DNA of 64,000 bases from Sulfurimonas sp. (GTDB taxonomy: Bacteria > Campylobacterota > Campylobacteria > Campylobacterales > Sulfurimonadaceae), in assembly GCF_028694605.1 (NCBI RefSeq), contig NZ_JAQVKP010000001.1, positions 62,001 to 126,000 on the forward strand. The letters are read 5' to 3'. Shown one piece after another: positions 12,349 through 33,775 of this stretch. Position 1 is the first letter of the stretch. Every line of letters begins with the position of its first letter. The position numbers and the translations under genes are program-made. The notes beneath the pieces were generated by a model that saw only the letters and a list, made by a program, of their open reading frames with translations, had not been told where the DNA came from and ran no database searches.

Positions 12349-12394
12349 TTTTTAGAGATACCCTTAATTAAGAGTAAAAAAATATTAGGCTAAG

Positions 12395-12432
12395 TATAAT
12401 GCAGGCAAATAGTACACCTTAAGGTAGCCTGC
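12395..12432 (+). promoter_or_regulatory. Putative promoter and hairpin ahead of the signalling gene run
   Basis: A perfect TATAAT lies at 12395-12400. GCAGGC (12401-12406) can pair with GCCTGC (12427-12432), and the intervening sequence contains the smaller palindrome ACCTTAAGGT; the likely Shine-Dalgarno AAGG (12421-12424) is inside this palindrome, just before the ATG at 12434. If transcription starts about 7 bases after the -10 box, the outer arm would be mostly excluded from the mRNA, so the hairpin may matter as DNA or not at all. Confidence 0.5.
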
Positions 12433-12433
12433 A

Positions 12434-13579
12434 ATGAAAAAAGCGAAAAAACCGACCGTTTTGGCAGTAGATGATACTCCCGAAATTCTCCATTTGGTGA
12501 TGGAACTTCTGCATTGTGATTATACGCTTAAACTTATAAATGACCCAAAAAAAGCACTTGAATTGCTTCAAAAAAATCCTGAAATCGACTTGATACTGCT
12601 TGATGTTATGATGCCTGCAATGGATGGGTATGAGTTGTGCAAAATCATAAAAAGCAACCCTCGCTATGAGAAAGTACCCGTCATCTTTTTAACTGCGCTT
12701 GAGAAAATGAGTGATGTCATAAGAGGGTTTGAGAGCGGGGCAGCAGACTATGTGACAAAGCCTTTTGTGCCGGATGTGTTAAGGGCAAGGGTTAAGACGC
12801 ACGTAGAGAGAAAATTGGCTTACGATGCGTTGGCAAGGGAGCTTGAGGCAAAAGAGGAGATGCTCTTTAAGCAAAGCAGGATGAGTGTTTTGGGAGAGAT
12901 GTTTGAAAATGTCACACATCAGTGGAAACAGCCGCTCTCCATCATAAACATAGGGTGCAGTACGTTAAAGATGAGTTATGAGTTTGATGAACTGACCATG
13001 GATGAGGTGATTGCAACCATTGATATGGTGATGGCAGAATCTGAGTATTTGAGCCAGACGATTGATGATTTTAGAGATTTTGCAAGAGAGGATAACGAGA
13101 GGGAGCTTTTTGATATGCACGCTCTTTTTGAGCATGCACTTGAGATTTTATCTTTTAGACTGAGTAAAATCGAGATAGAAGTAAGCAACGACATAGAGAG
13201 TTTCAAATACAGATCATGCAAAAACTACATCATTCAGGTTTTTATCAATATCTTAAACAATGCTATTGATGTTTTGGAAAAGGGTGCCAAAAAAGGATGG
13301 ATAAAAGCGAGTTCCAGAGTTGAAGATGGGAGTTTTATCGTTACCGTATGTGATAGCGGGGGTGGGATAATTTTGCAGGACATTGACTCTGTTTTTGAAA
13401 AGTATGTCACGACAAAAGTGGCAGAATCCGACTCGGGGCTTGGGCTTTATATGACAAAAGAGATTTTGCAAAAAAAAGTGGATGCAGAGATAGTTGCATA
13501 TAACAAGGATGAGGGCGCATGTTTTGAAATACGCTTTAAATTTGCCTATGCAGAGGGTTATGATGATGCAGCAGTGTGA
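12434..13579 (+). CDS. Response regulator-histidine kinase hybrid (REC-HisKA-HATPase)
   Basis: A soluble 381-residue protein with an N-terminal receiver domain (acidic pair in AVDDTPE, phospho-Asp57 in LLDVMMP, Thr87 in FLTALE, Lys109 in VTKPF), then a short coiled linker, a kinase dimerisation domain with candidate phospho-His162 (THQWKQPL, a variant H-box common in Campylobacterota), and a HATPase domain with N-box INILNNAIDVL and G-box CDSGGGI. There is no transmembrane segment. The REC-first layout suggests a kinase controlled by phosphorylation from another kinase. It is first of five overlapping genes; its 3' end overlaps the next gene. Confidence 0.9.
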   Translation: MKKAKKPTVLAVDDTPEILHLVMELLHCDYTLKLINDPKKALELLQKNPEIDLILLDVMMPAMDGYELCKIIKSNPRYEKVPVIFLTALEKMSDVIRGFESGAADYVTKPFVPDVLRARVKTHVERKLAYDALARELEAKEEMLFKQSRMSVLGEMFENVTHQWKQPLSIINIGCSTLKMSYEFDELTMDEVIATIDMVMAESEYLSQTIDDFRDFAREDNERELFDMHALFEHALEILSFRLSKIEIEVSNDIESFKYRSCKNYIIQVFINILNNAIDVLEKGAKKGWIKASSRVEDGSFIVTVCDSGGGIILQDIDSVFEKYVTTKVAESDSGLGLYMTKEILQKKVDAEIVAYNKDEGACFEIRFKFAYAEGYDDAAV

Positions 13580-14711
13580 AGATGAGTTTAAAAAAACGAT
13601 AGTTGCCATTGATGATACGCCTGATAATCTTCTGCTTATTATGGAGATTTTAAAGGATAGATACAAAGTTAAAACATTTAAAGAGCCAAAAAAAGCGTTA
13701 GAGTATCTTTTGTCAAACGCATGTGTTGACCTTGTCCTCTTAGATGTGATGATGCCAGAACTTAGCGGTTATGATCTCTTGAAAGTGCTTAGGCAAAATC
13801 ATAGTACAAAAGAGATACCGGTTATCTTTCTAACGGCGCTCTCTTCTCAAAGGGATGAACAAAAGGGACTGGAACTTGGGGCGTGTGACTACATAACTAA
13901 ACCTATCTCTGTTCCCATCATGCTCTCACGCATAAATGTCCATCTCGAAAACAGAGCTGCAAAAGAGTTTTTAAAGAGTAAGGCTGACTATCTTGAAGAG
14001 GAAATAAAAAAGAGAACAAAAGAGATACTCTCCATCCAAGATATTACCATTCTCACCCTTGCTTCTCTTGCTGAGACCAGAGATACCGATACGGGCAATC
14101 ACCTCAAACGTACACAGCGTTATATCAAGATACTCGCTCTTAAGCTAAGGGAACATCCAAAATTTAGAGATTACCTAAACGATGAGGAGATAGAGACGCT
14201 CTTTCGCTCCGCTCCTCTTCATGATATAGGCAAAGTTGGGATTGCGGACAAGATTCTCTTAAAACCCGCAGGTTTGAGCGATATTGAGTTTGAAATTATG
14301 AAAACACATACCACGTTAGGTAAAGAGGCGATTGAGCATGCAGAAGAAGAGGCAGGGGTTGAGGCTGCTTTTTTAAAGACGGCAAAGGAGATTGCATACT
14401 GTCACCATGAAAACTATGACGGAAGCGGCTATCCTCTTGGACTTAGCGGTGATGAGATACCAATCTCCGCCAGACTGATGGCGCTTGCGGATGTTTATGA
14501 TGCACTTACAAGCCGCAGGGTTTACAAAGAGGCAATGTCACACGAGAAGGCACGTTCCATCATAGTGGATGGGTGTGGAGTGAAGTTTGACCCTAAAGTT
14601 GTAGAAGCTTTTTTGGAGATACAAGAGGAGTTTCTTCTTGTTTCCCAAAAATATGCAGATACTGATGTGGTACTGCAACAAAAACAAAATCTTATCGAGA
14701 GGATGTTATAG
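13563..14711 (+). CDS. Response regulator with HD-GYP c-di-GMP phosphodiesterase domain
   Basis: An N-terminal receiver domain (AIDDTPDN, then phospho-Asp in LLDVMMPE) is joined through a coiled coil to a complete HD-GYP domain: HDIGKVGIADKILLK and HHENYDGSGYPLGL. Both catalytic motifs are intact, so this should hydrolyse c-di-GMP under phosphorylation control. The ORF extends upstream to 13494, but the cluster of three ATGs at 13560, 13563 and 13566 behind AGAGGG (13552-13557) is the likely start; 13563 is taken here. It overlaps the upstream kinase gene by about 17 bases and is followed 2 bases later by the large hybrid kinase gene. Confidence 0.9.
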   Translation: MMQQCEDEFKKTIVAIDDTPDNLLLIMEILKDRYKVKTFKEPKKALEYLLSNACVDLVLLDVMMPELSGYDLLKVLRQNHSTKEIPVIFLTALSSQRDEQKGLELGACDYITKPISVPIMLSRINVHLENRAAKEFLKSKADYLEEEIKKRTKEILSIQDITILTLASLAETRDTDTGNHLKRTQRYIKILALKLREHPKFRDYLNDEEIETLFRSAPLHDIGKVGIADKILLKPAGLSDIEFEIMKTHTTLGKEAIEHAEEEAGVEAAFLKTAKEIAYCHHENYDGSGYPLGLSGDEIPISARLMALADVYDALTSRRVYKEAMSHEKARSIIVDGCGVKFDPKVVEAFLEIQEEFLLVSQKYADTDVVLQQKQNLIERML

Positions 14712-14713
14712 CC

Positions 14714-17700
14714 ATGATAAGCAAATTGCTTCTTCTGCTTTTCTTATTTTTAGAGTCGGCTTTTGGGCAAAGTTTTAGGGAAAGTCTCAGTGAAAAAGAG
14801 AGGGCATGGCTTGATGCACATCCCATCATAAAACATACGGGAAATCCACAATATCTTCCTTATGAAGCTTTTGATGCAAACGCCAAGCATCGTGGAATGG
14901 TGGCTGAATATCTTGACGAAATAGAAAAAATGATAGGTATCAAGATAGAGAGGGTTCCATCATCTTCTTGGGAAGATGCGCTTTTAAAGTCAAAAGAAAA
15001 ACAAGTCGCTATGCTTACCAACTATACAAACGATGATGAATTTGCCGCTACACACAGCATAACTAAAGGATTTATCAAAAGTCCTGTCGTTGTCATCAAG
15101 AAAAAAACTCAAAAATACCAGACTTTTATCTCTGATTTTGAGGAGTTAAAAGGGGAGAAGATAGCACTTGAAAGAAAGCACGCTTTTTTAAAACCTGTCA
15201 TAAAAGAGTATCCGGAACTAGATTACAGAGAGGTCGATACTATAGAGGGTGTGCTTAAAGGGGTTGCGGAAGAGGAGTTTGATGCGGCACTTATAAGTCT
15301 TAATGTCGGCACATACAACATCTCTGAACATGGGTTGCGTAATTTGCATGTTGTGGGTACACATGATTTTGAGTTGGAGCTTGGGTTTCAGATAGCAAAA
15401 GAGGATGAAGTACTCCTTGGTATATTGAACAAAGTACTGGACGCGTTTTCACATAAGCAACACCATGAGATAACAAATAGATGGACGCTGATTGATATAA
15501 AACAGAGTTTTGATTACGGCTATGTGCCGCTGCTGCTTTTGATTATTGCGGCGATAACACTGCTTTACTTTTTTCGCTCATATGAACTCAAAAAAAAGAT
15601 TGAAAAAAGTACGTCCGAAATCTCTAAACTTCTCAAAGTTTTTGATGAGCATGTTATCGCTTCGGAGACGGATTTGCAGGGTAATATTACCTATGTCAGC
15701 AAAGCATTTTGTAGGATTAGCGGCTATAGCCAAAAAGAGCTTTTAGGTAAAAAACACAGTGTCATAAAACATCCGGATAACGATCCTAAGATATATAAAG
15801 AGCTTTGGGAGACGGTCTCTTCGGGAAAAGCTTGGCACGGGCTTGTAAAAAACCGTAAAAAAGACGGTGGATACTACTGGGTGGAGACTGTTGTAACACA
15901 AGACTTTGATGCTTTTGGAAAACCTTTTGGCTACATGGCGGTGCGTCAGGATGTAACTGCGGAGATGGAGCTAAAAGAGTTCAATGAAAACCTAGAAGAG
16001 ATTATAAAGAGCAGGACCAATGAGCTTTTGGCTCTCAACAAACAGCAAAAGGCGGTCTTTGATTCGGCGAGTATCGGGATACTGCTTTTGCAAAATAGAG
16101 TTGTCAAAGAGGTAAATGATGCCTTTTGTGAGATGACGGGATATGCCAAAGATGACATTACCGGCTTAACCACAAGAGCTCTTTGTGAGAGTGATGCAAG
16201 CTATGAGAAGATATATGACTACTACAAAATCGTTGAAGCCGGTGCGATTGCCGGATGGGAGCAGAAGATTGTCAAAAAAGACGGAACTATATTTGAAGCA
16301 AAAGTTCGCATAAAAGCAAAAGATGAGCATGATACCTTGGCGGGAGTAGTTGCCACCATAGATGATATCACGCTAGAGAAAAGAGCGCTGGAAGAGATAA
16401 AAAAAGCAAAAGAGATGGCAGAAGATACCGTCAAGGTAAAAGGACAGTTTTTGGCAAATGTAAGCCATGAGATACGTACGCCTATGAGTGCCATCATAGG
16501 TATGTCGCATCTGGCACTAGAGAGCGGTTTGAGTGAAAAACAGAGAGGTTATGTTCAAAAAATCGAAGGTGCGGCAAAAAATCTTTTGGATATCATCAAC
16601 GATATTTTGGATTTTTCAAAGATTGAGGCAAAAAAGATGACGCTTGAACATAGAGCATTTTACCTTGAAGATGTTTTTGAAAATCTTATCAACCTTTTTG
16701 TCTTTAAGATAAAAGAGAAAAATCTCCAGCTTCTCTTTAGCATAGAACATAATGTACCGTCTGCGCTTATAGGAGATGCGCTCAAGCTATCCCAAATACT
16801 TACAAATCTAGTCAGCAACGCCATAAAGTTTACTTCAAACGGAGAGATAATTATCGGGGTAAAAACAAAAGAGAGAGATGCCCAAAGTGCCAGAGTTGAG
16901 TTCTGGGTGCAAGACAGCGGTATAGGATTGTCACATGAACAGATAGAGAGACTTTTTTCTCCTTTTGAACAAGCAGACGGCTCCATTACAAGAACATACG
17001 GCGGTACGGGACTTGGACTCTCCATATCCAAACATTTGGTCGAAATGATGGACGGAACTATCGGCGTAGAGAGCGAACTGGGCAGGGGAAGCAAGTTTTA
17101 CTTTGATATAAAAGTGGATTTGGCAGAACAAAACAGAGAGCTGATGCAAGATGGCGTATCTAAAAAACTGCTTACTCCATCCAACCTTCAAGATGCTGTT
17201 TTACATGCTTTTGGCAAAAAAATGCCAAAACATAACGGTTATCATGAGGCGGCGCAACATCTTCGCGGAGCGGAAGTGCTTTTGGTGGAGGACAATAAGG
17301 AAAATCAAGAGATTGCCAAAGAGTTGCTTGCAAAGGTCGGTGTGAGCGTTACCATCGCAAACAATGGCAAAGAGGCACTTCAAAAGGTAGATGAAAAGCT
17401 CTTTGACGGAGTGCTTATGGATTGTCAGATGCCTGTGATGGATGGGTATGAGGCGACAAGTATTTTACGTCAAGAAAAACAGATGACGAGTATGCCTGTT
17501 ATCGCTATGACGGCTAATGCGATGCAAGAGGATAAAGAGAGATGTGTCAAAGCGGGAATGAATGATTTTGTGGCAAAACCTATCGATGTAAAACTTTTTT
17601 ACACGACACTTGCAAAGTGGATAAAGCCTAAAACAAACCATCAGATGACACAAGATAGCAGTGGCAAAAAAGAGGGAGCCAACCTTTATACATTGGATAT

Positions 17701-18301
17701 ATACGGTATAGATATCGACAAGGCACTGGATAGAGTTGCAGATGATGAAGAGATACTCTTTGGGATTCTTAAAAGGTTTGCGGCTTCACGAAAAGATGAG
17801 ATGCAAAAGATAGCTAAGATGTACGAAGAGGGCAATTTTGATGAGTTTAAAATGGCGGTGCATACGCTCAAAGGGCTAAGCGGCAACATAGAGGCAACTG
17901 CTGTCTATGAAGCACTCAAAAAGCTGGAAAATAGCATCAAAGAGGAGGGTGTAAACTCAAAAACCATAAAATCACTGATGCAAGAGATAGATGAGGAGCT
18001 AAAAAAAGTCGTAGCGTCCATAGAGACAAATTTTAGCAATTTAAAAGAGGAGAAAAAAGTCTCGGATGTACCGGATGTTGAGGATCTTCAAAAAGATATA
18101 GAAGTGTTGCAAGAACATTACAAAAACTTTGACTCTGACGCAATTAAAGCATCACAGGAGTTATCGCTAAAGCTTTATAAGTATCTGCCAAAACAGAGAG
18201 TTGAACCGATGCTAAAAGCTTCTCTCAACTTTGACTTTGATGTGGCTTCTGCTGCACTTGACACAATCTCAAAAGAGTTAGGAGGTAAGATATGTCGGTA
18301 G
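14714..18301 (+). CDS. Multidomain hybrid sensor kinase (SBP_bac_3-PAS-PAS-HisKA-HATPase-REC-HPt)
   Basis: A 1195-residue membrane phosphorelay protein. The order is: signal peptide; periplasmic solute-binding (SBP_bac_3) domain to about 265; one transmembrane helix around 270-290; two PAS domains (~305-420 and ~445-560); HisKA with phospho-His at about 585 (SHEIRTPMS); HATPase with SNAIKF, DSGIGL and GGTGLGLSI; a receiver domain with phospho-Asp about 903 (MDCQMPVMDG); and a C-terminal HPt domain with His about 1050 (HTLKGLSG). All phosphotransfer residues are present. The BvgS/EvgS-like layout suggests sensing of a small periplasmic ligand, probably feeding the neighbouring REC proteins. 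The last 10 bases overlap the next gene. Confidence 0.93.
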   Translation: MISKLLLLLFLFLESAFGQSFRESLSEKERAWLDAHPIIKHTGNPQYLPYEAFDANAKHRGMVAEYLDEIEKMIGIKIERVPSSSWEDALLKSKEKQVAMLTNYTNDDEFAATHSITKGFIKSPVVVIKKKTQKYQTFISDFEELKGEKIALERKHAFLKPVIKEYPELDYREVDTIEGVLKGVAEEEFDAALISLNVGTYNISEHGLRNLHVVGTHDFELELGFQIAKEDEVLLGILNKVLDAFSHKQHHEITNRWTLIDIKQSFDYGYVPLLLLIIAAITLLYFFRSYELKKKIEKSTSEISKLLKVFDEHVIASETDLQGNITYVSKAFCRISGYSQKELLGKKHSVIKHPDNDPKIYKELWETVSSGKAWHGLVKNRKKDGGYYWVETVVTQDFDAFGKPFGYMAVRQDVTAEMELKEFNENLEEIIKSRTNELLALNKQQKAVFDSASIGILLLQNRVVKEVNDAFCEMTGYAKDDITGLTTRALCESDASYEKIYDYYKIVEAGAIAGWEQKIVKKDGTIFEAKVRIKAKDEHDTLAGVVATIDDITLEKRALEEIKKAKEMAEDTVKVKGQFLANVSHEIRTPMSAIIGMSHLALESGLSEKQRGYVQKIEGAAKNLLDIINDILDFSKIEAKKMTLEHRAFYLEDVFENLINLFVFKIKEKNLQLLFSIEHNVPSALIGDALKLSQILTNLVSNAIKFTSNGEIIIGVKTKERDAQSARVEFWVQDSGIGLSHEQIERLFSPFEQADGSITRTYGGTGLGLSISKHLVEMMDGTIGVESELGRGSKFYFDIKVDLAEQNRELMQDGVSKKLLTPSNLQDAVLHAFGKKMPKHNGYHEAAQHLRGAEVLLVEDNKENQEIAKELLAKVGVSVTIANNGKEALQKVDEKLFDGVLMDCQMPVMDGYEATSILRQEKQMTSMPVIAMTANAMQEDKERCVKAGMNDFVAKPIDVKLFYTTLAKWIKPKTNHQMTQDSSGKKEGANLYTLDIYGIDIDKALDRVADDEEILFGILKRFAASRKDEMQKIAKMYEEGNFDEFKMAVHTLKGLSGNIEATAVYEALKKLENSIKEEGVNSKTIKSLMQEIDEELKKVVASIETNFSNLKEEKKVSDVPDVEDLQKDIEVLQEHYKNFDSDAIKASQELSLKLYKYLPKQRVEPMLKASLNFDFDVASAALDTISKELGGKICR

Positions 18302-19794
18302 AAAAAATAGTAGAACTGCAAAAAAAAGCACAGGGGCTGAAGTTGTTATACGCAGAGGACAACAAAAATTTGCAGCAGCAGGCTCTAAAAGTATTTACAA
18401 AGATATTTTCTGATGTTTTTGTCTGCGGCAATGCCCAAGAGGGAGTGGAACTTTTTAAAAAACATCTTCCCGAAGTGGTTATAACCGATATCAATATGCC
18501 CGGAATCAGCGGTATAGAGATGGCAAAGAGGATAAAAAAGATAGAGCCTTTTACTAAGGTAATCATTACTAGTGCATTTGATGACAAAGAGCATCTTTTT
18601 GGTGCGATTGATGCAAATGTGAGTAAGTACCTCAAAAAACCAATCTCTGTTTCGGTGCTTGTCGATGCGATAGAACATGTTGTAGATGAGGTGCTTTTTG
18701 AGAAAAACAAAGATATGTTTGAGCACTATGTCAGAGATGTTTTTCAGTATCAAGATACGATGCTTATCCTTGTAAAAGGACAAGAGGTTCTTATCGTCAA
18801 CAAAAAATGTCTTGAATTTTTCCAAAAAGGGTCACTTGAGGAGTTTAGAGAGATATTCGCAGATTTTGGCAAACTGTTTTTAAAACATAACAACTTTTTA
18901 TATAACTATGAGGGTATGGAGTGGCTTAAGAGTGCCAAAGAGAGTAACTCAAAACTCTTTAATGTCAAGATGGCGGATAGTGAAGGTGAGAGCAGGCACT
19001 TTATACTCAAAGCCTATAAAATCCCCAAAAAAGAGGATACTTTTATCCTCTCTTTTGATGATATCACAGAACTCAATCTGCTTATAGTTTACGATAAAGG
19101 CGCTGTGCAAAAAGAGAAACAGGAGAATCAAAAAAAGATTATCCACAACATTTTTGAAATTATCAAAAGAAACAACTCCAATATTCGTATCTATAACTCT
19201 TATAAGGGACTTAACATTTCCAATGTCGGAACTTTAGCGGATGTAAATCAAGACGGTTCTATAGTGTTGCAAACCCAGTATCTGCAACAAAGAGCTATCA
19301 AGATAAATAACTATCTTATCTTGGAGTCTGAACTCTTTCCGGCAGCTGTTTTTTGCGAGGTGGTAAATGTGGACTTTGAAAAAGGCGAGGTGCTTTTGAA
19401 AAACTATAAGTTTATAGATAATAAACCATCCGAACAGGAGTTTACAAGGGTAGAACCTGAGGAGAAGCATCAAATAACGCTCTTTTTTGAGGGACGAAAG
19501 ATAGTTATAGAGAGCAGACTTGTGAATGTAAGTGTAGGCGGAGCAAAAATAGTTCTCTCATATCTTCCTGCCGGTTTTAAAGAGCAAAGCGAGATAGTGG
19601 TAGATATGGTTTTTTATATTGAGACAAAACCGCTTATCGTCAACATAAAAGCAAAGGTGAAAAATATCATTGAGCAAAAAAAGGAGTTTGAAGTGATTGT
19701 GCTCTTTGATGAAGATAGAGGCGCAAAACATCTTTTGACAGATTATGTTGCAAGCAGACAGATGGCACTTATAAGAGAATTTAAAAAATTATGA
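18292..19794 (+). CDS. Response regulator with PAS-like middle and C-terminal PilZ-like domain
   Basis: A 500-residue cytoplasmic protein. The receiver domain (LLYAEDN, phospho-Asp in VITDINMPG, ITSAF, Lys in LKKPIS) occupies residues ~18-130. A middle region (about 145-265) resembles a PAS fold, with FILSFDDITE at its end. After a coiled linker, the C-terminal part contains RLVNVSVGGAKIVL, which fits the second half of the PilZ c-di-GMP-binding signature (D/NxSxxG) with a basic stretch upstream. PilZ assignment is tentative; the canonical RxxxR arginines are not obvious. It overlaps both neighbours (10 and 4 bases) in the signalling run. Confidence 0.78.
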   Translation: MSVEKIVELQKKAQGLKLLYAEDNKNLQQQALKVFTKIFSDVFVCGNAQEGVELFKKHLPEVVITDINMPGISGIEMAKRIKKIEPFTKVIITSAFDDKEHLFGAIDANVSKYLKKPISVSVLVDAIEHVVDEVLFEKNKDMFEHYVRDVFQYQDTMLILVKGQEVLIVNKKCLEFFQKGSLEEFREIFADFGKLFLKHNNFLYNYEGMEWLKSAKESNSKLFNVKMADSEGESRHFILKAYKIPKKEDTFILSFDDITELNLLIVYDKGAVQKEKQENQKKIIHNIFEIIKRNNSNIRIYNSYKGLNISNVGTLADVNQDGSIVLQTQYLQQRAIKINNYLILESELFPAAVFCEVVNVDFEKGEVLLKNYKFIDNKPSEQEFTRVEPEEKHQITLFFEGRKIVIESRLVNVSVGGAKIVLSYLPAGFKEQSEIVVDMVFYIETKPLIVNIKAKVKNIIEQKKEFEVIVLFDEDRGAKHLLTDYVASRQMALIREFKKL

Positions 19795-21434
19795 TAAAAA
19801 AAACTGTAGCGATAACAATTTTATTTTTTACTATCTTGTCTTTTGCCTCTTATCTTTTTGATAGAGAGTTTGAAAATCTAAAAGAGGAAGAACTGATACA
19901 AAAAGTTGCAAAAGTTCATAGAGTTTTTGATCAAAGAGTTGAGCAAAAACGCCAAGATTTGAACTACTATCTGCAAGAGATTTTACAGAACAAAGAGCTT
20001 TTAGATGCTCTCAAATATGAACAAAGAGAGAAGATTGATACTATCGTAAGCCCTTATTATAATGTGATCAGCAGGGTTGATGCAAGTATAAAACTGCTTA
20101 CGTTTCGAACAAAAGAGGGTATTACACTCTATAGAGCGCATGAAAAAGAGTTTTACGGGGATTCTCTCGACAAAAAACGCACAATCATTTTGGATACAGA
20201 TAAGCAACAACGCTCTTTTAGCGGTTTTGAGGTGGGTAAACTTTTTATTAGTTATCGTGTAACACGCCCGATTTTTTGTAAGAATGAGTATATAGGAAAT
20301 GTCGAAATAGGAGCCGACCCGACACTTATGCTGAAAGATTTGAGCGCTGTTTTGGATGCAGATATAGGAGTGGCGGCACAAAACAGATTTTTGGAAGTGA
20401 TGAATGGCCCAAATACACTTTACATCGGCGATAAACTATTTATGCTGCAAGGAAATAGAAATCTTGAAAACTATTTTTCAAAAAAATCTCAAAGCAAAAA
20501 CGGATACAGGGTTGATGCTTCTGTTGATTTAAAAAATCATAAATTGGAGCTTATCGGATATCTGATTTTTGGGTTTGATATACACAGGCAATTTGCCCAA
20601 TATAAAAAAGAGCAAGAGAAGATTTTTTGGTTTTTTGCTTTTGTGTTAGGTATATTTTTTGCACTTTTTACTTTTATGCTTTATGAGAGAAACGCGCAGT
20701 TGCAAAAAGATGATAAGGACTTCTTAGATTTGACAAAAGTTCTTAATGAAAAGAGTGTTACCCCGTATTTTCAGCTCATAGTAGATGCAGATGCAAATGT
20801 GGTAAAGTATGAGGCTTTGATGCGCATAGTTTATCAAGAGGGTGGAGAGACAAAAGTTTTGCTGCCTGATGTTTTTCTAAAAGAGGCAATCAAAGAGGAA
20901 GTTTATATCTCTCTTTTCCAAGAAATGATACAAAAAAGCATGTACCGTTTTAAAGACAGAGAAGAGATGATTTCTCTAAATTTTTTGCCCAGCGACCTTT
21001 TCAATATCTATATCATGCAAGAGTTTGTACAAAATATAAAGATGTTTGACACGCCGCAGAGAGTAGTCGTCGAGATATCGGAAGTAGAATGTGCAAAAAA
21101 CTTTTCAAAAGTGCTTCAAGTTGCAAAAAAGCTAAAGGGGTTGGGAGTTGGCATCTGTATAGATAATTTTGACGGAACTTCTTTAAATTACTCTACGCTT
21201 TTAGCCATAAACCCGCACTCCATAAAAATAAATGGAACTCTTCTGGCAACAAGAGGCGCTGTAGGCTATGAGCAACTATATTCCATGCTACAATTTGCAA
21301 AAGAGAACAACATAAAAGTAGCAACAGATTTTGTTGCGGACAAAGAGATGTTTGAGCTTTTAAAAACATACGGAATTGAGGAGTTTCAAGGTTACTATTT
21401 CGGGGAACCGAAGAAATTTTTAGAGGAAAAGTAA
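19791..21434 (+). CDS. Membrane sensor with degenerate EAL domain
   Basis: A 547-residue inner-membrane protein: N-terminal helix (about 5-22), a ~255-residue periplasmic sensor region resembling double Cache, a second helix (about 280-302), then an EAL-type barrel. Recognisable positions include YEALMRI (EAL motif and following Arg), the Asn of SLNFL, VEISE, the Lys of IKING and QGYYF. Two catalytic positions are changed: the DDFGTG loop is IDNFDGTS (second Asp to Asn), and the EGVE motif is TDFV, losing its glutamates. Phosphodiesterase activity is therefore doubtful; a c-di-GMP-binding or protein-protein role is more likely. It is the last gene of the five-gene run. Confidence 0.85.
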   Translation: MIKKTVAITILFFTILSFASYLFDREFENLKEEELIQKVAKVHRVFDQRVEQKRQDLNYYLQEILQNKELLDALKYEQREKIDTIVSPYYNVISRVDASIKLLTFRTKEGITLYRAHEKEFYGDSLDKKRTIILDTDKQQRSFSGFEVGKLFISYRVTRPIFCKNEYIGNVEIGADPTLMLKDLSAVLDADIGVAAQNRFLEVMNGPNTLYIGDKLFMLQGNRNLENYFSKKSQSKNGYRVDASVDLKNHKLELIGYLIFGFDIHRQFAQYKKEQEKIFWFFAFVLGIFFALFTFMLYERNAQLQKDDKDFLDLTKVLNEKSVTPYFQLIVDADANVVKYEALMRIVYQEGGETKVLLPDVFLKEAIKEEVYISLFQEMIQKSMYRFKDREEMISLNFLPSDLFNIYIMQEFVQNIKMFDTPQRVVVEISEVECAKNFSKVLQVAKKLKGLGVGICIDNFDGTSLNYSTLLAINPHSIKINGTLLATRGAVGYEQLYSMLQFAKENNIKVATDFVADKEMFELLKTYGIEEFQGYYFGEPKKFLEEK

Positions 21435-22761: not shown

Positions 22762-24012
22762 TCACCCCTTGACACCATCTGCTCTTGGAGCTTTTAAAAA
22801 GCCAAAAAATACTTTGATGTAGAGTATAAACGGCACAGTCCACACGACGGCGGAGAGCATATATAGCGTTTGCGTGTGCTCTGCATAAAAAGGGATAGCC
22901 CCTCGCATAAGAGTAGCCGTAACTAGCAAACCAACCATTAAGTGTGTGTAGATGTTGCTTGTCAGATGTCGTCCCGTATGAATCCAGCCAATGATTATCA
23001 TGACCATCAAGTAGGCAAGTCCATATCCGCCGCTTGTTATGAAGTGTCTGAAGCTGCTTGTATTTGCCGCACCGTTTGCCAAAATATCCCACCCTATAAG
23101 TGCGTATCCGCACGAGAGCATAAAAAAGATAAGCCCAAGATAGATAACAAAAGGTTGGTTGATAATCACTTTGTCTTTTAGGATGTAGTCGCTTGTAATG
23201 GCAAGTATCGCCGCACCTGCTGCAAGCCCTATCCACCCAAGAGCGGAGTTGGCAGGATAGAAAAACTCTACGAGCGTAAAAAGCATCACGGTAAAAACCG
23301 CTAGGTTAGTTAGAGGAGGGCGTGCGATATAGACGTCGTCTATGCCTTTGTCTTCCATGAGTTCATTGACAGCTTCCATATTTACCCGTCTGAGAGCTAA
23401 GAGTATAAGCACTACATGACCGCCAAGAGCGATTTTGAGGATGTTCATCGGGTCACTCTGTGAATGTCCAGCCATAGCGGCAAAAAACCATGCTTCAATG
23501 AGAAAAAGCCCTAAGAGCGTGTAGCCCAAAGAGGAGTGTCTTTGGAGTTTGTCAAGTACGGCTATGCGTGCAAACCACAAAATCCATCCAAGCATGGCAA
23601 GATTTAGAAGTGCAGCCACATAAACACCAGTGATATCGATAAACCAAAAGCTTAAGCGTCCCGCAACCCACAAAAGCATCACATTTTTGAGTTTTTGCCC
23701 GATGAGTGGTACAAATCCGGGGAAGAGTTCCGGAAGTCCCGTGGTCAAAAATGCCAAAACTCCAGCCGTCAGGATTCCAAAGAGCATCTCATAAACATGC
23801 CAGAGGAGTACATTTTGCATAAACGGGATATTTAAAACACCGCTGTAAACAAGCCCCCAAAGAAGCATGGAGAGTATCATATAAGGCGCAAGAAGCAGGA
23901 AAACAGGGCGAAATCCATAGGCAAGATAGGCAGGTACGCCCGTGTCGTCAGGGTAGTAAAGGTAGTGGTTGGTAGCGTGGAGTATCGGCTCTTTTTCTTC
24001 TTTTTTGCTCAT
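22762..24012 (-). CDS. NnrS-family haem-copper membrane protein
   Basis: A 416-residue polytopic membrane protein with about twelve predicted helices. The N-terminal AYGFRPVFLLLAPYM is the characteristic NnrS opening, and histidines in helices (for example LLWHVYEMLFG and MAGHSQSDP) are the likely haem/copper ligands. NnrS proteins are linked to nitric-oxide stress relief during denitrification. Here it is not in the nos cluster: it overlaps the upstream ABC ATPase stop by 1 base and so is the last gene of a four-gene minus-strand operon whose promoter region contains a Fur-like box. Confidence 0.88.
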   Translation of the reverse strand: MSKKEEKEPILHATNHYLYYPDDTGVPAYLAYGFRPVFLLLAPYMILSMLLWGLVYSGVLNIPFMQNVLLWHVYEMLFGILTAGVLAFLTTGLPELFPGFVPLIGQKLKNVMLLWVAGRLSFWFIDITGVYVAALLNLAMLGWILWFARIAVLDKLQRHSSLGYTLLGLFLIEAWFFAAMAGHSQSDPMNILKIALGGHVVLILLALRRVNMEAVNELMEDKGIDDVYIARPPLTNLAVFTVMLFTLVEFFYPANSALGWIGLAAGAAILAITSDYILKDKVIINQPFVIYLGLIFFMLSCGYALIGWDILANGAANTSSFRHFITSGGYGLAYLMVMIIIGWIHTGRHLTSNIYTHLMVGLLVTATLMRGAIPFYAEHTQTLYMLSAVVWTVPFILYIKVFFGFLKAPRADGVKG

Positions 24013-24749
24013 TATTTTAGTTCCAGTTCAAATGTTCTTATAATCTCTTCATCCTGAAGTATCTCGGCACTTTTGCCATAAACATATCTGTCGTCTCTCT
24101 CGTTTTGGATAAGGTCAAACTTGAATTTTTTTACGATATGTCCGGGGTCGGCTTTGAGAAGCAGCATCTCATCACTCAGGCGGATAGCCTCCATAAGGTC
24201 GTGCGTGATAAAAAGAATACTTATCTCTTTTTTGCTTATCATCTCAATAAGCACGCTTTGAAGCTCTTTTTTTAGCCCGATATCCAGAGCGGAGAATGGT
24301 TCATCCAAAAAGAGCAGGGCAGGTTTGACGACTAAGGCTCTTGCAAAACTAACTCTTTGCTTCATACCGCCGCTGAGGTCTTTTGGAAATTTGTCAAAAT
24401 CATCTTCTTCAAGCCCAAAACGAAGCGCAATATCTTGAGATTTTTTGATAGCCTCGCTTTTTTTCTCCCCTTTTGCCAGAAGTGCCAGAGCGATGTTGTC
24501 TATGACGCTCTTCCATGGAAGCAGGCGTGCCTCTTGAAACGCAAAAGCACTGCTTGAAAAAGTGTTGGTTACACTCCCCTCTTGAACATCTAAAAGCCCT
24601 GCGCAGAGGTGTAGAAGCGTTGTTTTTCCGCCACCGCTTGGTCCGACGATAGAGAGAACTTCCCCTTTTTGGAGAGTAAAGTTGATATTTTTCAAAATCT
24701 CCGTAAAACCAAAACGATGGTTGAGTTTTGCGACCTCTAATCTCTCCAT
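24012..24749 (-). CDS. ABC transporter ATP-binding protein (nitrate/sulfonate/taurine-type)
   Basis: A 245-residue ATPase with Walker A GPSGGGKTT (about 37-45), Q-loop FAFQEARLLPW, signature LSGGMKQR, Walker B LLFLDEP and switch His in FITHD. The family (SsuB/TauB/NrtD-like) energises import of small organic anions or heterocycles. It overlaps the permease by 13 bases and the NnrS gene by 1 base, so importer and NnrS are translationally coupled. Confidence 0.92.
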   Translation of the reverse strand: MERLEVAKLNHRFGFTEILKNINFTLQKGEVLSIVGPSGGGKTTLLHLCAGLLDVQEGSVTNTFSSSAFAFQEARLLPWKSVIDNIALALLAKGEKKSEAIKKSQDIALRFGLEEDDFDKFPKDLSGGMKQRVSFARALVVKPALLFLDEPFSALDIGLKKELQSVLIEMISKKEISILFITHDLMEAIRLSDEMLLLKADPGHIVKKFKFDLIQNERDDRYVYGKSAEILQDEEIIRTFELELK

Positions 24750-25519
24750 AGTTCCACCTCCCGCTTAAGTGGCTCTAAAATGATGTACTCGATGAACATA
24801 AGCGAGCCTATCATGATGACCACGATGGAGAGAGCTGTGGGTGTATCAAGCTGGCTTCTCGCCGTTGCAAGCGATGCGCCGATACCGTTGCTTGTCGCCA
24901 AGAGCTCCGCCATGATAACTATCTTCCACGCCATTCCAAGCGCACTGACCCATGCAGGAAAAACATAGGAGAAGATATGCGGAAAGTAAACATCAAAAAA
25001 GCGCATGTGCCACGGAAAATGAAAGCTCTGTGCCATCTCTTTGAGGTCACCATCCAGTGTTCGTGTCCCTTGAAGCGCACCAACAAAGATAATGGGAAAT
25101 GAAGCCACGGTAACGGTAAATATAACCGTCTCATCCCCCATCCCAAACCAAATCATCGCAAGAACTATCCAAGCAATCGGCGGCATACCCACAAGGATAG
25201 TAACTATGGGGCGGCTCATCATAGAAGCGGTAGCGAAAAATCCCGCCAAAAGTCCAAGTGTCGTTCCAAGCACCAAAGCCGCACCAAAACCGATGGAAGA
25301 GCGGTAAAGCGTCGTTTCTATCTCTGCTAAAACCGCATCATCATGAAGCATGGTATGTAATGTTTTGAAAGTTTCAAGAGGAGAAGGGAGGACTAAATCG
25401 CCGTAAACCTGATTGCCGACATCCCAAAGAGCGACAAAGAGAAAGATGGAAGCCACCGCTCCCCACCCGCTCCAAAGAAAGGCGGGAAAATCTTTTAAAA
25501 TCTTAAATGCAAATTTCAT
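24737..25519 (-). CDS. ABC transporter permease (nitrate/sulfonate/taurine-type)
   Basis: A 260-residue inner-membrane permease of the BPD_transp_1 fold with about six helices. The cytoplasmic coupling loop lies in the stretch AWKIVIMAELLATSNGIGAS, matching SsuC/TauC-type permeases. It starts 3 bases after the binding-protein gene stop and overlaps the ATPase gene. Substrate specificity cannot be read from the permease. Confidence 0.92.
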   Translation of the reverse strand: MKFAFKILKDFPAFLWSGWGAVASIFLFVALWDVGNQVYGDLVLPSPLETFKTLHTMLHDDAVLAEIETTLYRSSIGFGAALVLGTTLGLLAGFFATASMMSRPIVTILVGMPPIAWIVLAMIWFGMGDETVIFTVTVASFPIIFVGALQGTRTLDGDLKEMAQSFHFPWHMRFFDVYFPHIFSYVFPAWVSALGMAWKIVIMAELLATSNGIGASLATARSQLDTPTALSIVVIMIGSLMFIEYIILEPLKREVELWRD

Positions 25520-25522
25520 ACT

Positions 25523-26503
25523 CTACTTTCCATAGTAAAAACTCTCCTGCGGAAGCTTCTCGCCAATACTTTTTGGCTCTTCTGCTTTTAGGACTTCAAA
25601 GAAAAACTCTAACTCTTTTTTAGCCTCTTTTGCAGGTACATTTTTGAGGCGCACATGGGAGATGGAGTCGTTTATCGCATCTTCGTTTAGCATGGTAAGC
25701 GTTTTTGCGGCAAGTTTTCCCGCCTCTTTTGGGTTTGCTTTGTACCACTCAAGCGACTTTGCGTACTCCTCTTGAAATCTTTTGATAAGATGCTCATCCT
25801 TGACATGCCCCATAACCGCAATACCCGCTTCGGGGATATCGCCTTTTGTTCCAAAAACTTTGCCCCACTCCTCTTGCAAATCAACGCTTCTGTAAAGTTC
25901 AGGCGCAACGATGCTCACAGGAAAAGATTTTGTTTTGCGAAGTGCCATAGAGATGGCAGGTTCAGCCAAAAGCGCATGGTCAACTCTTCTCATGATTAGC
26001 ATCTGCATCGCATCAACGGGAGTAGCCACATAGACGAGTTCAAAATCTTTTTGCGGGTCTAAACCCTCTTTTTTTGCAAGTTGTTTAAAGACGACATCGG
26101 GCATATCTGCACGAAACGGAACGGCTATCTTTTTGCCTTTGAAATCTTTAAGAGTTTTGAGTGTGTTATCACGGCTTATCATCCCCAAAATCCCCCAGAC
26201 AGAGACGCTCAGGAGTTTTATGTCCACTCCTTTGTTGTTGAGCGTTGCCGCCGTGTTGGTCGGAACTGCCACAAAATCGACATCCCCCTTAATCGCCATA
26301 GCACGAAGTTCATCAGGGTTTTTCCAGACACGAAACTCTACCTTCTCCGCCACATCTTTAAGAGCGTTCGTCTCGATCATATGTAAAATCGGATGCGAAA
26401 CAGAGGCAAAAGGTCCGGAAACCACAAGTTTTTCAACCTTTGCATCAGCAAAAGAAGCGCCAAAAAGCATCATTGCACTAAACGTATAGAGTAATTTTTT
26501 CAT
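25523..26503 (-). CDS. ABC transporter periplasmic binding protein (NMT1/SsuA-like)
   Basis: A 326-residue exported protein: signal peptide MKKLLYTFSAMMLFGASFADA, then a two-lobed type II binding fold of the NMT1/SsuA/NrtA group (VDFVAVPTNTAATL and DHALLAEPAISMAL are hinge-region signatures). Family members bind sulfonates, nitrate, thiamine precursors or similar compounds. The Fur-box-like palindrome at 26539-26557 just upstream suggests iron-regulated expression, so the ligand may be an iron-, haem- or metal-related small molecule; this is inference. Confidence 0.88.
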   Translation of the reverse strand: MKKLLYTFSAMMLFGASFADAKVEKLVVSGPFASVSHPILHMIETNALKDVAEKVEFRVWKNPDELRAMAIKGDVDFVAVPTNTAATLNNKGVDIKLLSVSVWGILGMISRDNTLKTLKDFKGKKIAVPFRADMPDVVFKQLAKKEGLDPQKDFELVYVATPVDAMQMLIMRRVDHALLAEPAISMALRKTKSFPVSIVAPELYRSVDLQEEWGKVFGTKGDIPEAGIAVMGHVKDEHLIKRFQEEYAKSLEWYKANPKEAGKLAAKTLTMLNEDAINDSISHVRLKNVPAKEAKKELEFFFEVLKAEEPKSIGEKLPQESFYYGK

Positions 26504-26538
26504 AGTCTCTTCTCCTAAAATATATTTGGTATATTACT

Positions 26539-26557
26539 AATAATGATAGTAGTTATC
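26539..26557 (-). promoter_or_regulatory. Fur-box-like palindrome ahead of the ABC/NnrS operon
   Basis: The 19-mer agrees with the classical Fur consensus (GATAATGATAATCATTATC) at 15 of 19 positions by my count and contains AATGATA-N5-TATCATT as a perfect inverted repeat. It lies 36 to 54 bases upstream of the binding-protein start codon. Confidence 0.65.
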
Positions 26558-26574
26558 ATTGATTTTAATCAATT

Positions 26575-27522
26575 TTAAAAAATATATCCAACTCTTGCGA
26601 TAAATCGCTCTTTTTCAAGCGGCTGATACTCTTTTAAGTCATAATGCGCCAAGAACGAAATACCCACGCCAAAGTGGATTTTGGGTTTGCCAAAAGGCAA
26701 AAACTCTATCTGCGGCGTGACATAACCCGCACTTCCGCTAAAAGCCTTAAACGGAAGCATCGCGCGAAGCTGTGTGTTGGTGTCCTCGCCCATGTCGGTT
26801 GTGGTATTGTACGCAAAATTATACTCAATTCCCACATTTATCTGTTTTGTAATGGCTTTTGTCGTAGAGAGATCAAAGCTTAACTCGTTTCCAAAATCAT
26901 AATCATGCTCTGCTTTTGGTCTGTAAGTAAACATAGTGTGAGCGTCCATTTCCCAGTTATCATCCAACATATATGAAACTCCCATCCCGATTTTATACTC
27001 AAACTCTCCCGTTCCCATCTGTGTGGGCATCGGGGTATTTATGCCTGTAGCAAAAGCAGGAGCTTTTTTAAAGCCGTTGTCGTTTGAACCTGTCGGGAGC
27101 TTTACGCCGCCATCAAGAGAGAGTTGAAACCCATACTTGCTCATTGGCAAAAGCACATGCCTTGCAACCATGATAACATCGCCCACCCCGCTGTTGTCTA
27201 TGGCGACATCATTTATGCCAAGCTTTGCAGTAGCTTCTATGTTTTTATATGGAACTATAACTCCCAAAGTCGTTGTTTTTGTTACCCCGTAGTTTAGTTT
27301 AAACAGAGTTATATTTGCCGTTGCATCCAAATTTTCTTTATTTTGTGCCTCATGAGAGCCATCAAACATATTTTTTCTATCAAACTGTATATGTTTGATT
27401 GTCATCTTTGCCACTCCCTCAGGCAAAACCTGCGCCCCGCCTTTGGAGTTTATGGCAGGGACAACATCCGCAAATATCATAAGCGGCGCAACCATGCCCA
27501 ACGCTAAAGCTATTTTTTTCAT
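26575..27522 (-). CDS. Outer-membrane beta-barrel protein, phenol-degradation MetA-like 'transporter' family
   Basis: A 315-residue protein after choosing the ATG at 27522, which begins a normal signal peptide (MKKIALALGMVAPLMIFA); the longer ORF start at 27558 would place 12 residues before it. The mature part alternates strands ending in aromatic residues (FQLSLDGGVKLPTGS, YKIGMGVSYML, FARVGYIF-like ending), typical of an outer-membrane barrel and of the MetA/'transporter' family. It could be the outer-membrane partner of the adjacent importer. A strong Fur-box-like site at 27596-27614 lies upstream. Confidence 0.72.
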   Translation of the reverse strand: MKKIALALGMVAPLMIFADVVPAINSKGGAQVLPEGVAKMTIKHIQFDRKNMFDGSHEAQNKENLDATANITLFKLNYGVTKTTTLGVIVPYKNIEATAKLGINDVAIDNSGVGDVIMVARHVLLPMSKYGFQLSLDGGVKLPTGSNDNGFKKAPAFATGINTPMPTQMGTGEFEYKIGMGVSYMLDDNWEMDAHTMFTYRPKAEHDYDFGNELSFDLSTTKAITKQINVGIEYNFAYNTTTDMGEDTNTQLRAMLPFKAFSGSAGYVTPQIEFLPFGKPKIHFGVGISFLAHYDLKEYQPLEKERFIARVGYIF

Positions 27523-27595
27523 TTTTCCAACCTTTTTTAAAGTGATATTCATCCTCAATAAAGAAGTGTAGTGGAAAAGTTCTTAATTTAAGATA

Positions 27596-27632: not shown

Positions 27633-30309
<2,677 letters not shown>

Positions 30310-32494: not shown

Positions 32495-33775
32495 CTACTC
32501 AACACGGTTTCTGCCTCTCTCTTTAGCAAGGTAGAGTTTTTCATCTACTTTTATGACAAATTTATCGACTGCCTCTTGAGTAGCCATTATGCTATTATCA
32601 GCAAGAACGGTAAGAGTTCCTATGCTTACGGTATAGCGGATAGTTATATTCTCAACAACGACCTCTTTGGAAGCTGTTATATCACAAATTTTCTGCGCAA
32701 GTATCAGGGTCTCTTCTTTGCTCGTCATAGGAAGCAAAATCATAAACTCTTCGCCGCCAAAACGAAAAATATAGTCTGATTTTCGAAGAGTTTGTTCTAA
32801 TATTTTTGAAAAGTGCTGAAGTACTATATCACCTACTGCGTGTCCGTAAGTATCATTCACCAACTTAAAATGATCCAAATCACACATCATCAGAGCAAAT
32901 TCTCTGCCTGTTACCTTTGCAATATCTATCTTGCTAAGCATGATTTTATTGAACAAACGTCTTGTGAGCAGATGAGTAAGAGGGTCTTTAGCACTCTCTT
33001 CAATCTCGTTTAAAAAAGCAATCTCATTACCGATTTCAAGCGAGTAGTAGTCTATTCGATTCATTAGATGAATAAGCGTTGCCGGATGGGATTTATTACT
33101 CTTACAATAGTTAACTACATTTGCAGCCAAATCATGCAGATTCATATGGAGCTTTTCTATTACTTTAAAGTGAGATGTGGAGAGCAAATAAGAGGTTGAT
33201 GAACCTTTCATCCATTTGCCAAAATCGCATAGATTAGGATTGAGTTCAGGATAATTTTTATCACTCTCATTTTTTTGAATATAAACAATAAGATTAATTA
33301 TCCACTTTATATGATTTTCGTAATGTATCATAAATTTTTTATCTGGCATTGATTGTATATGAGAGAGACGAAGCTCATTTTTAAGTTTTAGCTGATCTAA
33401 AAATTTTGCTAAGTACAAATCTGTAATTTTATCTTCATGCTCCGTAAAAAATATATTTATTTCATCAATATGCTCAAAATCATGTTTATCTATAATGTTA
33501 CCAAGAAGTCTGCGAACAACAGTTACAAGTTCACTATATAGAAATAGATAAGATATATCCTGTTCAATCGTAAAATTTACTAATATTTTAGTATTTTGCT
33601 CAATTTCCTCTTTGGACTTAGATAAAAGAAGCTCTAAAAATAGTTTTTTATACTCTGTAATGGCATGTGTGTATAAAAAGTCACTTGAGTATTTAGACTG
33701 CAAACTCTCAACATTAATATTAAAATTACGAACACACTCTTGAATTTCTGAAAAATATTTTTTAATAACTAGCAT
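32495..33775 (-). CDS. Diguanylate cyclase with CZB zinc-sensing domain
   Basis: A soluble 426-residue protein. Residues ~1-135 are helical with no firm match. Residues ~145-220 form a CZB domain with the 3His/1Cys zinc site: a His near 151-155, Cys183 (in NLCDFGKWM), His210 and His214; the C-to-H spacing of 27 and H-to-H of 4 equals that of E. coli DgcZ. The C-terminal GGDEF domain has GGEEF at about 340-344, an intact inhibitory RxxD (RKSD, 331-334) and DxxHFKxxND. It should make c-di-GMP and be inhibited by zinc or product. A 304-base gene-free stretch separates it from the nos genes. Confidence 0.88.
   Translation of the reverse strand: MLVIKKYFSEIQECVRNFNINVESLQSKYSSDFLYTHAITEYKKLFLELLLSKSKEEIEQNTKILVNFTIEQDISYLFLYSELVTVVRRLLGNIIDKHDFEHIDEINIFFTEHEDKITDLYLAKFLDQLKLKNELRLSHIQSMPDKKFMIHYENHIKWIINLIVYIQKNESDKNYPELNPNLCDFGKWMKGSSTSYLLSTSHFKVIEKLHMNLHDLAANVVNYCKSNKSHPATLIHLMNRIDYYSLEIGNEIAFLNEIEESAKDPLTHLLTRRLFNKIMLSKIDIAKVTGREFALMMCDLDHFKLVNDTYGHAVGDIVLQHFSKILEQTLRKSDYIFRFGGEEFMILLPMTSKEETLILAQKICDITASKEVVVENITIRYTVSIGTLTVLADNSIMATQEAVDKFVIKVDEKLYLAKERGRNRVE

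Follow-up and report, generated by a model that had tools for sequence, protein, structure and literature searches.

What kind of signalling circuit is formed by five tightly packed genes of Sulfurimonas sp. that join phosphotransfer domains to domains of cyclic di-GMP (c-di-GMP) signalling? The genes fill positions 12434-21434, as five plus-strand open reading frames (ORFs), of a stretch of 64,000 nucleotides (contig NZ_JAQVKP010000001.1, positions 62,001 to 126,000; hereafter the window). A first-pass annotation had read them as a complete circuit, running from periplasmic ligand sensing through a multistep relay to c-di-GMP hydrolysis and possible read-out. A c-di-GMP-linked phosphorelay operon is upheld by the anatomy of the proteins, by the co-conservation of the genes and by architectural precedents; its completeness is not. 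The explanation that we favor, and regard as rather probable, is a branched phosphorelay of the RocS1/RpfC kind. It is backed by the domain anatomy, the intact phosphorylation sites, a conserved core of genes 1, 3 and 4, the predicted YcgR-like fold of gene 4 and the degenerate motifs of gene 5.

Organization of the operon and its phosphotransfer proteins

The five ORFs overlap or nearly abut one another, as had been reported: genes 1 and 2 share 20 bases, genes 3 and 4 share 10, genes 4 and 5 share 4, and a gap of 2 bases separates genes 2 and 3. Gene 2 most likely starts at the ATG at 13560, just downstream of an AGAGGG; the alternative listed start, a TTG at 13494, would extend its overlap with gene 1 to 86 bases. 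From this spacing we infer that the five genes are co-transcribed. The domain architectures first assigned to the proteins were confirmed by Pfam with two refinements: gene 4 holds more than REC-PilZ, and the EAL domain of gene 5 is degenerate. The phosphotransfer residues, said to be intact, were indeed found as motifs in genes 1 and 3 and in the receiver of gene 4.

Gene 3 (14714-18301) is by its sequence an unorthodox kinase of the RocS1/BvgS type, since it has SBP_bac_3 and PAS domains and the H1-D1-H2 order; the full arrangement is SBP_bac_3-transmembrane segment-PAS-PAS-HisKA-HATPase-REC-HPt. Pfam matched SBP_bac_3 (7.6e-11), two PAS stretches, HisKA (8.1e-22), HATPase_c (4.4e-27), Response_reg (1.5e-27) and Hpt (4.1e-6), and the phosphoacceptor motifs SHEIRTP, DCQMPVMDG and VHTLKG are all present. 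Among solved structures, its periplasmic part is closest to the domain of an EAL protein (7ejg, 5e-19), to EvgS (9ilw, 2.4e-16) and to BvgS (4q0c, 7.1e-16).

Gene 1 (12434-13579) encodes a soluble REC-HisKA-HATPase receiver-histidine kinase (Response_reg 1.8e-25, HATPase_c 2.9e-14, HisKA 3.8e-6) with the motifs THQWKQPL and LLDVMMP. Gene 2 (13560-14711) encodes a REC-HD-GYP response regulator (Response_reg 6.3e-23, HD_5 3.2e-27), in which HDIGK, HHE and GSGYP supply the HD, HH and GYP motifs of an RpfG-type protein; it is best read as an active c-di-GMP phosphodiesterase, by analogy with RpfG in the RpfC relay. Between genes 1 and 2, the receivers share 48% identity, as against 22-30% for the other five pairs among the four receivers of the operon, which fits a duplication and a shared phosphate donor.

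Conservation of the gene set

A search for gene 4 at E <= 1e-130 covered 135 genomes of the genus and matched nine, the window's own genome included; one for gene 1 at E <= 1e-75 covered 228 genomes of the family and matched 14, among them all nine that hold a close gene 4. At these nine loci genes 1 and 3 are always present (gene 3 being only partly seen in some), gene 2 is found at six, and gene 5 lies beside gene 4 at four. The conserved core of the operon is genes 1, 3 and 4, and their joint presence at 9/9 loci makes the grouping more than a matter of chance. The five-gene order, looked for in other genomes, stands as far as this core is concerned. As a fixed unit of five genes it was rejected, the full set occurring at 4/9 loci only.

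All five genes are found in the window's own genome, G133, G059 and G113, genes 1-2-3-4 in G087 and G216, and genes 1-3-4 in G064, G111 and G162. Several of these genomes are fragmented, and the locus is split over two contigs in G111, G113, G162 and G216; in G216 the split falls within gene 1, and in G162 separate ORFs make up gene 3. The spacing between genes 1 and 3 in G064, G111 and G162 (77, 11 and 45 bases, respectively) leaves no room for gene 2.

The other five matches to gene 1 comprise a fragment at a contig end (G227) and genes in G158, G083, G017 and G005. Genes 1-2-3 are present at 40-59% identity in G158 and G083; G017 has gene 1- and gene 3-like genes, and G005 has gene 1-, 2- and 3-like genes. 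The diverged block of G158 lies on one strand in the order gene 4-kinase-gene 1-gene 2-gene 3, with gaps of 1-85 bases and identities of 33, 41, 58 and 41% for genes 4, 1, 2 and 3; its gene 3 carries a second receiver. That these four genes were kept together though reordered is good evidence of their functional linkage.

A horizontally mobile cassette was also considered, as the flanks differ between some genomes. Local rearrangement explains these flanks equally well, because several genomes share flanking genes: some are common to G111, G162, G133, G059 and G064, the downstream flank of G087 is common to G216, and the window shares an NnrS gene with G133 (75%) and the gene at 27654-29612, which from the look of its sequence we take to be ligA-like, with G111 (88%). 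In a further genome, G085, a 68-residue ORF (L056:9964-10170) has 65% identity to the final 52 residues of gene 4. Nothing else in the 20 kb examined around it matched the operon proteins, and it is likely to be a remnant of a deleted operon.

Gene 4 is a predicted REC-PAS-YcgR-like response regulator

In gene 4 (18292-19794) Pfam finds a receiver (Response_reg, 4.1e-20), whose residues E22, D23, D66, S94 and K116 are present, and a PilZ match at 0.002, below the family cut-off. Among 20 relatives, at E values up to 1, PilZ was matched in 15 and PAS_8 in four. NCBIfam gave no family above cut-off for the operon proteins among the matches listed, up to 25 per protein, and the PHROGs matches of gene 4 come almost wholly through the receiver, with 0/6 families bearing a named function. 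The part behind the receiver is widespread, with matches in 41/398 genomes of the order at E <= 1e-40 and in 110/151 genomes of the family at E <= 1e-5, many of the weaker matches being partial.

An AlphaFold2 model of gene 4 built from 61 sequences reached a predicted local distance difference test score (pLDDT) of 89.9. The C-terminal 229 residues were modelled alone (pLDDT 94.7), because the VIA matches to the whole model were filled by receivers. This model matches both domains of E. coli YcgR in complex with c-di-GMP (5y6f, 2.5e-8), followed by MrkH, MotI/DgrA, PP4397 and VCA0042. Against MrkH and MotI (5kec, 5vx6) the VIA Z score is 13.5 at a root-mean-square deviation of 12-13 Å, which probably comes from a different angle between the two domains; the PilZ half is clear, with Z 13.1 at 2.5 Å to the PilZ domain of YcgR alone (5y6g). 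A profile search with the C-terminal part against the sequences of solved structures returned only MotI (YpfA), at E 0.049. The models make REC-PAS-YcgR-N-PilZ the best reading of gene 4, the C-terminal half being a predicted two-domain effector of the YcgR type.

The first-pass annotation had suggested that gene 4 might read out c-di-GMP. The predicted fold agrees with this; the RxxxR motif does not, as the window protein has QEFTR in its place. The second motif, [DN]xSxxG, is present as NVSVGG. The first Arg of RxxxR is Gln in 8/9 orthologues, and the orthologue in G064 has both motifs. We aligned the window protein with 60 of 61 full-length filtered relatives from loci with retrieved surroundings (L134 and L081 being one contig, the former was dropped). 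Of these 61 sequences, 56 have an intact receiver site, 39 have RxxxR and 19 have [DN]xSxxG; both PilZ motifs occur in five and neither in eight. The counts hold for this sample, and many further matches to gene 4 lie outside it. They suggest that phosphorylation is more generally important than c-di-GMP binding in the gene 4 family, which falls short of proving that binding has been lost. We tentatively suggest, as a possibility that may well prove wrong, that gene 4 belongs to a widespread Campylobacterota family of REC-PAS-YcgR proteins switched mainly by His-Asp phosphorylation, with c-di-GMP binding weakened or lost; a sensor kinase would then have a direct effect on the motor or on surface machinery, and the HD-GYP sibling would tune the c-di-GMP that other receptors sense. 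FliG is encoded in the same genome, which allows, and does no more than allow, an action of gene 4 on the flagellar motor.

Gene 5 carries a degenerate EAL domain

Gene 5 (19791-21434) matches dCache_3 (3.1e-8) and EAL (8.6e-34) and has no GGDEF match in Pfam. Two hydrophobic segments, read from the sequence, flank the dCache_3 domain, giving the order transmembrane-dCache_3-transmembrane-EAL. The EAL domain keeps EALMR, N397, E428, K479 and Q533, and with EALMR the ExLxR motif seen in degenerate EAL receptors; DNFD stands for DDFG, KIN for KID and TDFVA for AEGVE. Which EAL residues count as essential is here in part a matter of general background. As its catalytic motifs are degenerate, the idea of an ordinary phosphodiesterase was rejected, and gene 5 is probably a receptor rather than a phosphodiesterase. 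By sequence, YkuI is its nearest relative of known structure.

Within the same genome the closest paralogue is L163 (G000:C6), a single open frame of 750 codons that matches both GGDEF and EAL; it is 39% identical to gene 5 in the sensor and 40% in the EAL domain. A paralogue in G133 (L039:753-2918), less than 5 kb from gene 5, is dCache_3-GGDEF-EAL by Pfam, and both paralogues have DDFG, KID and AEYVE. The simplest history would be that gene 5, a GGDEF-less member of this group, lost its GGDEF domain and that its EAL motifs then decayed. Its orthologues have DDF in G113 and DNF in G133 and G059, and all three keep the Glu of AE. Among the 19 other EAL loci of the window's own genome, DDFG and KID are found in 13 and not in L167, L169, L170 and L171; L160 and L172 fall outside this reading.

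A proposed branched phosphorelay and its alternatives

According to the branched relay, the gene 3 sensor kinase would bind a periplasmic ligand through its Venus-flytrap domain and would pass phosphate by H-D-H steps to its own HPt. This HPt would charge the HD-GYP phosphodiesterase of gene 2, whereby c-di-GMP would be lowered, as well as the YcgR-type effector of gene 4, whose output may be motility or surface behavior. It would probably also charge the soluble REC-kinase of gene 1, serving as a tuning or relay node. Gene 5 would be an optional membrane receptor or adaptor for a second periplasmic signal, which may bind c-di-GMP and probably does not hydrolyze it.

Several observations weigh against this scheme. 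Gene 2 is absent at 3/9 loci and gene 5 at 5/9, counted at the locus itself with no search elsewhere in those genomes. The HPt match of gene 3 is modest (27.4 bits against a Pfam cut-off of 24.6), and the genome holds six HPt matches, five of them outside gene 3, so that another phosphate donor is possible. The receiver of gene 4 is only 22-25% identical to the other receivers of the operon and may therefore have a different donor, for example the gene 1 kinase. Finally, the YcgR-N part of gene 4, taken alone, ties between YcgR-N (Z 8.8) and the FMN (flavin mononucleotide) maturase PhdC (Z 9.0), and for this reason the assignment of that half rests on the joint two-domain match and on its position. 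To call the circuit complete is too strong, because a GGDEF gene is absent from the operon, genes 2 and 5 are missing at the loci just counted, the EAL domain is without its catalytic motifs and the PilZ domain without the first Arg of RxxxR.

One alternative is that the functional unit consists of genes 1, 3 and 4 only, with the YcgR-type regulator as its single output and genes 2 and 5 as passengers that add c-di-GMP control in some lineages. The missing room for gene 2 in G064, G111 and G162 and the absence of gene 5 beside gene 4 at 5/9 loci speak for it; we nevertheless consider it unlikely, since gene 2 is kept at 6/9 loci and lies beside genes 1 and 3 even in the diverged G158 and G083, as expected of an old partner. 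We would give a similarly low chance to two parallel pathways within one operon, one leading from the HPt of gene 3 to gene 2 and the other from the gene 1 kinase to gene 4. Such an arrangement would agree with the gene 4-like genes that adjoin or lie near ordinary kinases (e.g., L043, L046, L143, L195) and with the 22% identity of the gene 4 receiver to those of genes 1 and 2. However, no kinase neighbor was seen among the blast matches at L044, L045, L047, L145, L147 and L150, which are examples rather than a tally over all loci; and gene 1, which lacks a sensor, is most likely fed by another kinase via its receiver.

The remaining alternatives concern the individual c-di-GMP proteins. Gene 4 could be a canonical c-di-GMP receptor that reads the messenger level lowered by gene 2, as would suit its YcgR-type fold, the fit of NVSVGG to [DN]xSxxG and the two motifs of the G064 orthologue; the Gln found in 8/9 orthologues and the presence of both motifs in just 5/61 sequences make this doubtful, albeit still worth serious consideration. 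That gene 5 could be active as a phosphodiesterase, its divergent motifs notwithstanding, appears quite improbable. In favor of activity, the domain still has EALMR and QGYY, the Asn in SLNF, the two Glu in VEISE and the Lys in KIN; DDF survives in the G113 orthologue, and so does the Glu of AE in the orthologues of G133, G059 and G113. The window protein nevertheless has DNFD, KIN and TDFVA where L163 has DDFG, KID and AEYVE, and its closest solved relative is YkuI.

Comparison with known systems

The general wiring of the branched relay is already known. In P. aeruginosa, the HPt domains of RocS1 and RocS2 are described as interaction partners for the receivers in RocA1, in RocA2 and in RocR, a REC-EAL phosphodiesterase (PMC3083521); RocS1 is described as uniting SBP_bac_3, PAS, HisKA, REC and HPt in one protein (PMC12051241), and ArrS-ArrR of Aeromonas is presented as a further case (PMC11841396). 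Gene 3 joins the same domains as the kinases of RocS1-RocR-RocA1, BvgS/EvgS and ArrS-ArrR, as far as these sources describe them. Unlike in the Roc system, it has one flytrap domain and two PAS domains by Pfam, the phosphodiesterase of the operon is REC-HD-GYP instead of REC-EAL, and a YcgR-type response regulator and a REC-kinase make up the remaining arms in place of a DNA-binding regulator. Within the operon, REC-HD-GYP and REC-PAS-YcgR-like proteins thus take the places of the REC-EAL and REC-HTH partners.

The input domain of RpfC is of another kind than the SBP_bac_3 and PAS domains of gene 3. RpfC-RpfG of Xanthomonas campestris, with the PilZ partner XC_2249, resembles the operon in its pairing of an HPt-bearing hybrid kinase with a REC-HD-GYP protein, and its account includes both a relay to HD-GYP and a PilZ protein that controls motility with no need of the ligand (PMC3749722). 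Gene 4 has a receiver, whereas XC_2249 is not described as a response regulator in the available part of that source. With YcgR, MotI (DgrA) and MrkH, gene 4 shares the predicted two-domain fold with PilZ; unlike them, it carries REC and PAS-like domains ahead of this fold, and its RxxxR motif lacks the first Arg. PixA of Myxococcus xanthus also combines a receiver and PilZ in one protein that controls motility, and c-di-GMP binding is described as unimportant for this role under the conditions tested (PMC8316039); in contrast to gene 4, PixA has a single PilZ domain at its N terminus and the receiver at its C terminus.

Degenerate EAL domains with ExLxR are reported to be still capable of binding c-di-GMP, and a degenerate loop six to lower activity (PMC10333796); YkuI is listed as a receptor (PMC10519070). 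As described for LapD, FimX and YkuI, the EAL fold of gene 5 keeps ExLxR and has lost catalytic motifs; unlike this group, gene 5 has dCache_3 and no GGDEF match.

The claim that no system of this exact composition has been described holds in that limited keyword searches of one open-access library gave none among the matches listed; the wiring itself has close relatives in RocS1/RocR, ArrS/ArrR and RpfC/RpfG, as these are portrayed in the sources above. Judged among the matches listed, a keyword search gave no paper on such a system in this lineage, and a limited literature search gave no description of a REC-PAS-YcgR effector like gene 4. Within the reach of these searches, the novelty seems to be this effector, stably paired with both a RocS1-like kinase and a REC-kinase, the HD-GYP and degenerate EAL genes being lineage-dependent additions. 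Should a kinase control gene 4, this protein would illustrate how phosphorelays and c-di-GMP come together at a single effector. It also makes it possible to test whether phosphorylation can replace ligand control in PilZ effectors.

Transcription signals and genomic context

An 85-base gap lies 5' of gene 1, behind a gene which from the look of its sequence we take to be trpC. A possible promoter region for the operon (12385-12433, plus strand) contains a TATAAT at 12395-12400, read from the sequence; it is weak and absent from the consensus promoter matches. Promoter-like sites are at chance level in the promoter scan (22 found, 22.6 expected). As plus-strand sites fall inside the genes, e.g., at 12585, 13535, 13726 and 20035, internal promoters are possible. 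Terminator-like sites numbered 12 (7.3 expected, standard deviation 3.1), among them a plus-strand site at 19032 inside gene 4 and another site at 21398 near the end of gene 5. The G+C content is lower in genes 4 (0.363) and 5 (0.351), at 18292-21434, than in genes 1-3 (0.40-0.41).

In the genome as a whole, Pfam matched 38 GGDEF, 20 EAL (one below the family cut-off) and four HD_5 domains, and a single PilZ domain (below cut-off), that of gene 4. Divergent PilZ domains may be overlooked in such a scan, because the PilZ model at E 0.01 recovers 38/61 relatives of gene 4. Near gene 4-like genes elsewhere, L043:8139-9611 and L062:5145-6638 encode REC-HD-GYP proteins with a partial C-terminal GGDEF match.

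A FHIPEP-family protein is encoded in the window. On the minus strand after the operon (22762-27558) lie the NnrS gene, a set of transporter-like genes that includes an NMT1-like binding protein, and a gene for a Phenol_MetA_deg family protein. Further along are a protein combining CZB (chemoreceptor zinc-binding) and GGDEF domains (32495-33775) and a nitrous oxide reductase-like protein with a C-terminal cytochrome c domain (41459-44059).

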